Below are positions 22,678-41,557 of a DNA stretch of 44,225 nucleotides, piece by piece. Position 1 is the first letter of the stretch. Each line of letters begins with the position of its first letter. The stretch lies in the NCBI GenBank assembly GCA_025449645.1, contig JANWIY010000136.1:1-44225 (forward strand). Direction: 5' to 3'. The DNA comes from Chitinophagaceae bacterium (lineage in GTDB: Bacteria; Bacteroidota; Bacteroidia; Chitinophagales; Chitinophagaceae). The notes under the pieces were generated by a model, which searched no databases, was not told the DNA's origin, and worked only from the letters and a program-made list of their open reading frames with translations. A program made the translations under genes and the position numbers.

Positions 22678-23436
22678 ATGAAACATACCACATTCAGCCG
22701 GAGGAATTTTGTAAAAAATACCGGATCCGCATTGGGCTTATTGCCCTTTCTCCCACTAACGCAAAGACTCCAGATACAGGACGCGGAGAATAAAAAAATA
22801 ATCTGTGTGGGCGGCCATCCCGATGATCCGGAAAGTGGTTGCGGCGGTACGCTTGCAAAATTTTCCAACGAAGGACACGAAGTGACCATTATTTATTTAA
22901 CCACGGGAGAAGCGGGTATCGTAAATAAGTCCCATACGGAGGCAGCGGATATAAGAAAGCAGGAAGCAATAAATGCATGTAAAATTCTGAAAGCAAAACC
23001 GGTTTTTGCCGGTCAAATAGATGGCGACACTATCATGAATAATGATTGGGTAGCGAAAATGCAGACAATCATCGCTGCCGAACAACCTGACCTGGTGTTT
23101 ACACATTGGCCGATCGATTCCCACAAAGATCACCAGATTGCAAGCCTGCTCGTGATACAATCCTGGATTCGCGCGCAGCAAAAATTTCCGTTATATTTTT
23201 TTGAAGTTTGCGCCGGTGAACAAACCTTGAGTTTCCATCCGACAGATATTGTGGATATCAGCAATACGCAGGAACAAAAAAGAAAATCGGTATACTGTCA
23301 TACCAGTCAGGATCCTCCTGGAATCTATAGTTGCGGTCATGCCAGCATGGAAGATTTCCGCGGAAGGCAATTGGGTGTAAAAGCAGGTGAAGGATTTGTC
23401 AGAATGACCGGGAAAGGACAGGGTGGCCTAACCTAA
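22678..23436 (+). CDS. PIG-L/LmbE-family deacetylase, Tat-exported
   Basis: A 252-residue zinc-dependent N-deacetylase-like protein. The N-terminus has a twin-arginine signal (FSRRNFVKNTGSALGLLPFL). The metal motif appears as GGHPDDPE (residues ~43-50; the usual form is AHPDD), followed by LAKFSNEGHEVTIIYLTTGE. The second motif is THWPIDSHKDHQ (~144-155), which supplies the third metal ligand and the active-site His. Family members remove acetyl or acyl groups from amino sugars or related glycans; export suggests a periplasmic glycan substrate. Its 3' end overlaps the end of a convergent small ORF by nine bases. Confidence 0.9.
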   Translation: MKHTTFSRRNFVKNTGSALGLLPFLPLTQRLQIQDAENKKIICVGGHPDDPESGCGGTLAKFSNEGHEVTIIYLTTGEAGIVNKSHTEAADIRKQEAINACKILKAKPVFAGQIDGDTIMNNDWVAKMQTIIAAEQPDLVFTHWPIDSHKDHQIASLLVIQSWIRAQQKFPLYFFEVCAGEQTLSFHPTDIVDISNTQEQKRKSVYCHTSQDPPGIYSCGHASMEDFRGRQLGVKAGEGFVRMTGKGQGGLT

Positions 23437-23640
23437 AATCCACCAATCCCTTTCCGATGGATTGTCTGCCCGAAATACCTTCAGATCGTAGAACCCGCTA
23501 TCATGCATAGCGTAAATAATTTCCTTCGTGATATTCCTGATAACGTATGTTTTAGCCTTTTCAGGCTCCGAATGATCGAGTAACCTGTCGCCAATAGCCA
23601 GCTTTTGAATTTCCTTTACAGAACTAATCTTCCTGAGCAT
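23428..23640 (-). CDS. Small hypothetical protein
   Basis: A 70-residue product, not recognised. It begins MLRKISSVKEIQKLAIGDRL, contains KAKTYVIRNITKEIIYAMHD and ends SERDWWILG. Composition and alternation suggest a small soluble beta-rich cytoplasmic protein. There is no signal peptide or membrane segment. It overlaps the convergent PIG-L gene by nine bases at the 3' ends. A spacer with a hairpin separates it from the repeat-peptide gene upstream. Confidence 0.5.
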   Translation of the reverse strand: MLRKISSVKEIQKLAIGDRLLDHSEPEKAKTYVIRNITKEIIYAMHDSGFYDLKVFRADNPSERDWWILG

Positions 23641-23728: not shown

Positions 23729-23760
23729 GGAGCGGTTGCCTTATCAAAAACAACCGCTCC
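23729..23760 (-). terminator. Rho-independent-like hairpin downstream of the repeat-peptide gene
   Basis: A perfect 10-bp GC-rich stem, GGAGCGGTTG (23729-23738) with CAACCGCTCC (23751-23760), and a 12-base loop. It lies 33 bases past the stop of the gene at 23794-24072 (minus strand). The U-tract is weak on the minus strand and only TTT on the plus strand, so it may instead be an mRNA-stabilising 3' hairpin. Confidence 0.6.
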
Positions 23761-23793: not shown

Positions 23794-24072
23794 CTACCTG
23801 ATATAGGCTGTAGCCAATTTAGGAGAGTCTTTTGGAGTTGTGTCTGCCAAAACCCGGCTCACATAACGAACCGATAATTTAGGAGAATCTTTAGGAGTCG
23901 TGTCTGACACCATCGAATTCAGATAAGCAGTTGCCAGCTTAGGCGAATCTTTGGGTGTTGTGTCTGCTAAAGTCAGAGTGTTAGAAAAGTGGGTACGATT
24001 GTTTCTGACAGAAGCCATAGAGGCTCCAATAACGCAAAGGCCTGCACACGCAGCCAGTAGGACTTTTTTCAT
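23794..24072 (-). CDS. Secreted small protein with three DTTPKDSPKL repeats
   Basis: A 92-residue protein of unknown function. Residues 1-20 (MKKVLLAACAGLCVIGASMA) are a strong Sec signal peptide. A short linker (SVRNNRTHFSNTLTLA) is followed by three units with an exact 20-residue period: DTTPKDSPKL at 37-46, 57-66 and 77-86, each with Tyr four residues later (positions 50, 70, 90). The last unit stops after AYIR. The decapeptides are identical, yet seven of the ten codon positions differ among copies by synonymous changes only, which points to selection on the peptide itself. It could be a multi-copy peptide precursor cut at basic residues, or a structural surface protein. The 5' leader has a run of ten T residues (coding strand). 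No processing gene is adjacent. Confidence 0.75.
   Translation of the reverse strand: MKKVLLAACAGLCVIGASMASVRNNRTHFSNTLTLADTTPKDSPKLATAYLNSMVSDTTPKDSPKLSVRYVSRVLADTTPKDSPKLATAYIR
23797..23964 (-). repeat. Three 60-bp coding repeats (20-residue units)
   Basis: The three units begin at 23964, 23904 and 23844 on the minus strand. The first 30 bases of each encode the same decapeptide with different codons (for example CCC, CCT and CCA for Pro4; CTG, TTA and TTG for Leu10). The second halves (ATAYLNSMVS, SVRYVSRVLA, ATAYIR) are looser but keep Tyr and a following aliphatic residue. Confidence 0.85.
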
Positions 24073-24204
24073 AACTGAACAATTTTTGATGTTAAAAAAA
24101 AAATTCCTACGATTTAGGATAAGGTTTATTCCAATTTCTTTCCTTTGCTTTTCAGTAAGAAAAGAAACAATTGAAAGAATCTAAAAATCATGCCAATTTG
24201 TGGA

Positions 24205-41233: not shown

Positions 41234-41557
41234 CTAATTCAAATGGGGAACTTCACTAGGCACAACTACATTTTGCGATCTGGAGAGACGGATGCCCTTT
41301 GCTACAAAGAATAGCAGACCGGCAAGTGAAAAGCAAAACATTATGGAAGTGATAACGGACATGGTGACGCCGATCCTATAGATCAGAAGGGCCCCGGTAA
41401 TTGCGGCGACGATCCCAAAACAAATGGACCAGGAAACAGATTCCCGGATCTGCAGCCTCCTTGCTGATGCTGAACCAGTTGGAGCAGATTTAAAAACAGA
41501 CTTGCCTGCCTGGGAAGTGTCTATGAGCCCGACTTCTTTCAACTGCGGTTCCATCAT
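41234..41557 (-). CDS. Small membrane protein, hypothetical
   Basis: A 107-residue protein from the ATG at 41557 (MMEPQLKEVGLIDTSQAG). The N-terminal third is polar and basic. Two adjacent transmembrane helices follow (ICFGIVAAITGALLIYRIGV and VITSIMFCFSLAGLLFFVAK), then a short basic tail (GIRLSRSQNVV). The upstream frame to 41581 uses a TTG and is unlikely. Unknown function; stands alone between convergent and divergent neighbours. Confidence 0.6.
   Translation of the reverse strand: MMEPQLKEVGLIDTSQAGKSVFKSAPTGSASARRLQIRESVSWSICFGIVAAITGALLIYRIGVTMSVITSIMFCFSLAGLLFFVAKGIRLSRSQNVVVPSEVPHLN

Follow-up and report, generated by a model that had tools for sequence, protein, structure and literature searches.

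Small signal-bearing proteins of Chitinophagaceae with D-T-x-P units and an upstream sigma-54-type element: candidates for O-glycosylated envelope mini-proteins

What kind of protein would keep one decapeptide in three identical copies while the underlying codons diverge? This question is raised by an open reading frame at positions 23794-24072 (minus strand, stop codon included) of the window, a 44,225-nucleotide stretch of DNA from a Chitinophagaceae bacterium, whose contig belongs to a 3.59 Mb genome that is 86% complete. An earlier note had described the frame and its repeats from the letters of the DNA, leaving the strand unstated. The predicted mini-protein has 92 residues and begins with a Sec-type signal peptide (approximately residues 1-20, 24013-24072, minus strand) made up of MKK, a hydrophobic stretch and A-S-M-A, with the cleavage point placed by eye. 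The decapeptide DTTPKDSPKL starts at residues 37, 57 and 77, a period of exactly 20, and a tyrosine occupies unit position 14 in all three copies. Unit 1 (23905-23964) continues with the spacer ATAYLNSMVS, unit 2 (23845-23904) with SVRYVSRVLA and unit 3 (23797-23844) with ATAYIR, all on the minus strand.

The codon pattern proved to be as previously described: codons 2, 3, 4, 6, 7, 9 and 10 vary between the copies, codons 1, 5 and 8 are constant, and all differences are synonymous. A recent slip of the DNA is ruled out, since Tandem Repeats Finder (minimum score 30) yielded no tandem array and, compared pairwise, the copies are identical at 23, 24 and 26 of the 30 bases that encode the decapeptide. 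By hand count, nine minimal changes, all synonymous, account for the differences, which corresponds to a neutral probability of 2.7e-6 to 2.2e-5, a range set by the assumed transition bias. As judged from sequence comparison, the frame is a gene and not a chance product, because relatives in other genomes share both its signal and its unit. Conservation along the alignment is among the highest at the N-terminus, and a signal-like N-terminus was recognized by eye in the family members that were read. A lipoprotein was considered and rejected: the mini-protein has the sequence LAAC ending at Cys9, preceded by only five hydrophobic residues, and this lipobox cysteine is not conserved, position 9 being phenylalanine in each of the other four sequences of the first alignment. 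Structure prediction from the single sequence yielded no confident fold (pLDDT 47), a low-confidence result that does not by itself establish disorder.

The synonymous divergence had been attributed to purifying selection on an old duplication, and comparison with a related genome (G019) bears this out. Three units are found there at the same locus, the first interrupted by two N, and the flanking genes are the same as here, a PIG-L-type gene and uxuA; the dS values of neighbouring genes between the two genomes are 0.74 and 0.97. Decapeptide copies within the present genome gave a pN of 0 at a pS of 0.79 (three pooled comparisons), the orthologous units 2 and 3 compared with G019 gave a pN of 0 at a pS of 0.63, and the drifting spacers 1 and 2 gave 0.25 and 0.26, respectively, each sample comprising a small number of codon pairs (10 to 30). 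In spacer 2, two of ten codons differ from G019, as against nine of ten when units 1 and 2 of the present genome are compared; spacer 2 is thus closer between genomes than between units, and at least unit 2 was therefore separate before the split. The spacer of unit 1 differs from its G019 counterpart at eight of ten codons, and the decapeptides of units 1 and 3 in G019 are encoded alike at all but one of eight readable codons. Because units 1 and 3 of G019 are nearly alike and the unit 1 spacer is so divergent, some exchange between units is possible.

The decapeptide itself is conserved over a limited range. The earlier note had reasoned that free variation among homologues would argue against a selected peptide, and the findings point partly in that direction: the decapeptide is invariant in the comparison with G019 but altered in the more distant genomes G007 and G005. 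The G007 gene, whose neighbours on both sides are related to those found here, encodes three units reading DTVP[PG]DTTK (decapeptides DTVPPDTTKP, DTVPPDTTKA and DTVPGDTTKP), and the G005 unit reads DTVPK[K]PDSPK. These changes between distant relatives affect all units of a protein alike, and the core that lasts across relatives is D-T-[VTIL]-P.

The mini-protein belongs to a family of 32 small, predicted exported ORFs, each with a D-[ST]-[VTIL]-P unit, distributed over 27 genomes in 13 genera. A five-member profile matched 92 of the 394 genomes of the family Chitinophagaceae at an E value of 0.1 or better; many of these matches cover mainly the signal, and the 32 members were kept after the fetched loci had been read. 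At an E value of 0.01, matches were obtained in 84 of 298 genomes of the same order and in 71 of 395 genomes across the phylum; outside Chitinophagaceae they were mostly signal-only, spanning for the most part the first ~25-45 of the 63 profile positions, and were excluded. The set also omits G019, whose start falls within a run of N and whose sigma-54-type element was read separately, and ORFs longer than 160 residues. The latter comprise three near relatives in genus g32 (L034, L039 and L045), which are ~320-400 residues long, contain several DTVP-type motifs and all have the sigma-54-type element as well, in the form TGGCACAGTTTTTCTA. One close relative was confirmed in named genome contigs (PLEB01000210.1, a Chitinophagaceae bacterium from palsa).

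For counting units we used 30 proteins, leaving out two of three copies from G062. A single D[ST]xP unit is present in 23 of the 30, from a total of 44 units; repeated units occur in this genome (G000), in both G005 genes, in G007 and in G118, and the members from G102 and G062 have two motif copies. The G062 locus (L145 2391-3077, minus strand) holds three tandem paralogues with two DTxP-type motifs each, adjoining a gene common to seven loci of that genus.

The view that the family had not been described held within the databases and literature searched. The mini-protein scored nothing above cut-off in Pfam or NCBIfam, matched one PDB sequence at an E value of 0.16 and had no relative in the viral contigs, phages or plasmids searched; one PHROG of unknown function matched residues 34-57 at 6.5e-6. 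A literature search on the exact peptides found no paper, and one on small secreted proteins of Chitinophagaceae found a single unrelated one. The G005 member at L004 (1381-1737, minus strand) passes the NCBIfam cut-off for RPE4, the Rickettsia palindromic element domain, at an E value of 6.8e-6; this is probably a low-complexity match, which could misname such proteins.

Upstream of the gene lies a sigma-54-type -24/-12 element, TGGCATGATTTTTAGA (24180-24195, minus strand), which ends 107 nt before the ATG. The sigma-54 consensus is TGGCACG-N4-TTGCW, and TGGCATGATTTTTAGA scores 9 of 12 against it. The pattern TGGCA-N6-TT, fixed after the members had been seen, occurs within 250 nt upstream of 26 of 32 members as compared with 16 of 321 control small signal-like ORFs, which were mechanically defined and are possibly not all genes. 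A strict form, TGGCANNNTTNTT, written after the first set, precedes 22 of 32 members and 5 of 321 controls; at least three of the 16 control matches, and three of the five strict ones, come from loci retrieved by the motif search itself. Among loci fetched from the first run of the strict pattern onwards, it was present in 5 of 11 members and in none of eight other small signal-bearing ORFs. At least 9 of the 12 consensus positions were matched in 20 of 23 members, as against 11 of 94 other ORFs and 4.3% of shuffled sequences. Element-bearing members occur in 10 of the 13 genera, members of the same genus not being independent in these counts, and the element is missing in six of the 32, including the paralogue in this very genome (GGGCATGATTTTTATA). 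Across four genomes of the genus, the motif is found at 13-19 sites per genome versus 6-12 for a reversed control; it is thus noisy genome-wide, and single sites are therefore weak evidence. The genome has two Sigma54_DBD matches indicative of RpoN, one of them beside an activator, and six full-length sigma-54 activator domains.

No sigma-70-type promoter was found, and a possible extracytoplasmic-sigma promoter, weighed by eye in the leader, was discarded, as the wider family does not conserve it. Also by eye, we noted a leader element, TCCTAAATCGTAGGA (24105-24119, minus strand), with a TCCTA/TAGGA inverted repeat; it is similar in G007, less closely so in G005 and G015, and had no Rfam match. 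A terminator-like hairpin of 14 pairs (23729-23760, minus strand; fold z-score -5.1) follows 33 nt after the stop codon. Further downstream on the same strand, a 70-residue ORF (23428-23640, minus strand) without a Pfam match is closely related to one near the G007 gene (L185).

Similar sites were seen elsewhere. The window contains another sigma-54-type site, TGGCACGGTTTTTTGC (41593-41578, minus strand), 36 nt before a 107-residue ORF (41234-41557, minus strand) that resembles a small membrane protein and has no Pfam match; its G007 relative (L222) has TGGCACGATTTTTTGC at the same place. Such sites also precede a 56-residue small membrane protein, both in this genome (L212) and in G007 (L223/L205), and a ferritin-like gene in G024 (L225; Pfam PF00210), which hints at an envelope or stress regulon. 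In another Bacteroidota family (L127, L139), small exported proteins in tandem copies have TGGCA-type sites at -79 and show no visible sequence relation to the DTVP family.

The composition of the units offers a clue to their role. Bacteroidota O-glycans are attached at the sequon D-[ST]-[LIVTASMFCG], as given in portions of PMC12871550 and PMC8729774; according to the former, proline is the third residue in under 1% of cases, the enzyme that attaches the core glycan is undiscovered and the function of the glycan is largely unknown. In the mature parts of the 30 members, Asp is followed by Ser or Thr in 123 of 141 cases, and 114 of these 123 are permitted sequons, as compared with 17.7 in shuffled members (maximum of 32 in 2000 shuffles), a density that is partly circular because the members were found with a profile containing DTVP and DTT. 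In 20 alignment rows, Ser or Thr follows Asp in 63 of 72 cases and Glu in one of ten. The third residue in the 44 D[ST]xP units is V in 30, T in seven, I in four and L in three. The mini-protein of the window has three predicted D-T-T sequons, and only these three sites are left, because its second motif, D-S-P, is not a favoured sequon. The proline after the sequon is nearly constant in the family and is not part of the known motif.

Taken together, the reading we prefer, to which we give about even chances, is that the mini-protein is an O-glycosylated envelope protein under sigma-54 control, in which the units serve as modules for glycan attachment. The gene would be driven by an RpoN promoter of its own and its transcript would end at its own terminator. 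The product would be small, exported and probably unstructured. In its mature chain, short units would follow one another, each based on D-T-[VTIL]-P (the phylum-wide D-[ST]-x sequon with a near-constant proline) and usually extended by another D-[ST] and by a few hydrophobic or aromatic residues. Each unit would accept a glycan, making the protein a polyvalent glycopeptide located in the periplasm or at the cell surface, and its production may be switched on by a sigma-54 activator in response to an envelope or starvation signal. Within this scheme, the ORF, its repeats, the selection on the decapeptide, the family, the promoter association and the sequon density are observed; of these, the family, the decapeptide selection and the promoter association stand on firmer ground than the glycan, and export, use of RpoN, inducing condition, destination and role are predictions of the same kind as glycosylation. 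Somewhat short of even, in our estimate, are the chances of the broader proposal, namely that an undescribed family of such sigma-54-controlled, O-glycosylated exported mini-proteins extends across Chitinophagaceae, with units that multiply within a protein or as tandem genes, drift in their DNA and change together between lineages. They would change together because all must fit the same partner, a glycosylation enzyme or a receptor.

The main rival dispenses with the glycan: each unit could be a linear motif recognized by a partner in the envelope, which would be why the units co-change. A decapeptide pN of 0, a near-constant proline that the sequon does not need, and the short hydrophobic or aromatic stretch beside most units all suit such a motif; however, the near-exclusive D-[ST] with a permitted third residue is better explained by a sequon, and no partner is known, so that we regard this alternative as unlikely while keeping it ahead of the others. 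Distinctly improbable is a low-complexity exported tail of no specific role, subject to drift and compositional bias, with a promoter element that is there by coincidence or serves some neighbouring function. D[ST]-rich tails do occur in small lipoproteins of related genomes, and the decapeptide varies among distant members, but a pN of 0 at high pS speaks against drift, and TGGCA-N6-TT was found with only two of 15 D[ST]-rich lipoproteins (none of 15 for the strict form).

The earlier note had likened the design either to a short repetitive surface protein or to a precursor yielding multiple copies of a single peptide, with Lys and Arg near the unit borders as possible cleavage sites, and had suggested looking for conserved neighbouring proteases or transporters. 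In the precursor reading, a protease would cut between units and set free repeated copies of a signalling or antimicrobial peptide. Gene sharing among the 27 neighbourhoods compared (by similarity, with six annotated) is mainly within genera, and the exceptions include histidine kinases, which recur in five neighbourhoods, and arginine deiminase relatives and ABC ATPases, which are each seen in three. A precursor would fit the identical decapeptides behind a signal peptide, the unit sequences that are lineage-specific yet alike within one protein, and the ABC genes in the vicinity of three members: G304 has a divergently oriented exporter 366 nt away, and ATPase genes occur near the G112 gene and, at a distance of 6 kb, by that of G161. 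It is nevertheless the least probable reading and an unlikely one, given that most members have a single unit, that no dibasic site lies between units, that the lysine at unit position 5 is replaced by Pro or Gly in G007, that no neighbour is common to most genera in the flanks compared, and that the three ABC genes belong to a very common domain family, with a membrane domain only in that of G304.

If the glycan-module reading is correct, a short, sequon-rich protein with its own predicted sigma-54 promoter would lend itself naturally to use as a substrate of the O-glycosylation machinery and as a reporter for it, and would also be a concrete, testable target for sigma-54 in Chitinophagaceae.

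Several known systems share features with the mini-protein. Multi-copy peptide precursors likewise combine a signal peptide with identical repeated peptides; in contrast, the present family lacks conserved cut sites, no processing gene is shared across most genera in the flanks compared, and single-unit relatives are common. The small D[ST]-rich lipoproteins of related genomes are also short and signal-bearing with D-[ST] repeats, but a lipobox cysteine replaces the signal-peptidase-I site, the DT[VTIL]P unit is absent and the element is mostly missing. Genes of the sigma-54 (RpoN) regulon that serve the bacterial exterior, which in portions of PMC3162934 include those for polysaccharide, flagella, LPS, lipoproteins and wall precursors, similarly have a -24/-12 element before an envelope-type gene; the main text of that paper contains no match for Bacteroid-, Flavobacteri-, Chitinophaga or Cytophaga. 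A further parallel is with the general O-glycoproteins of Bacteroidota such as Bacteroides fragilis, Tannerella forsythia, Porphyromonas gingivalis and Flavobacterium johnsoniae, which are exported and modified at D-[ST]-[LIVTASMFCG] sequons; the mini-protein has sequons of this form, and its export and glycosylation are predicted. Those known O-glycoproteins are ordinary-sized proteins with scattered sites, whereas the mature chain of the mini-protein consists mostly of sequons and spacers.
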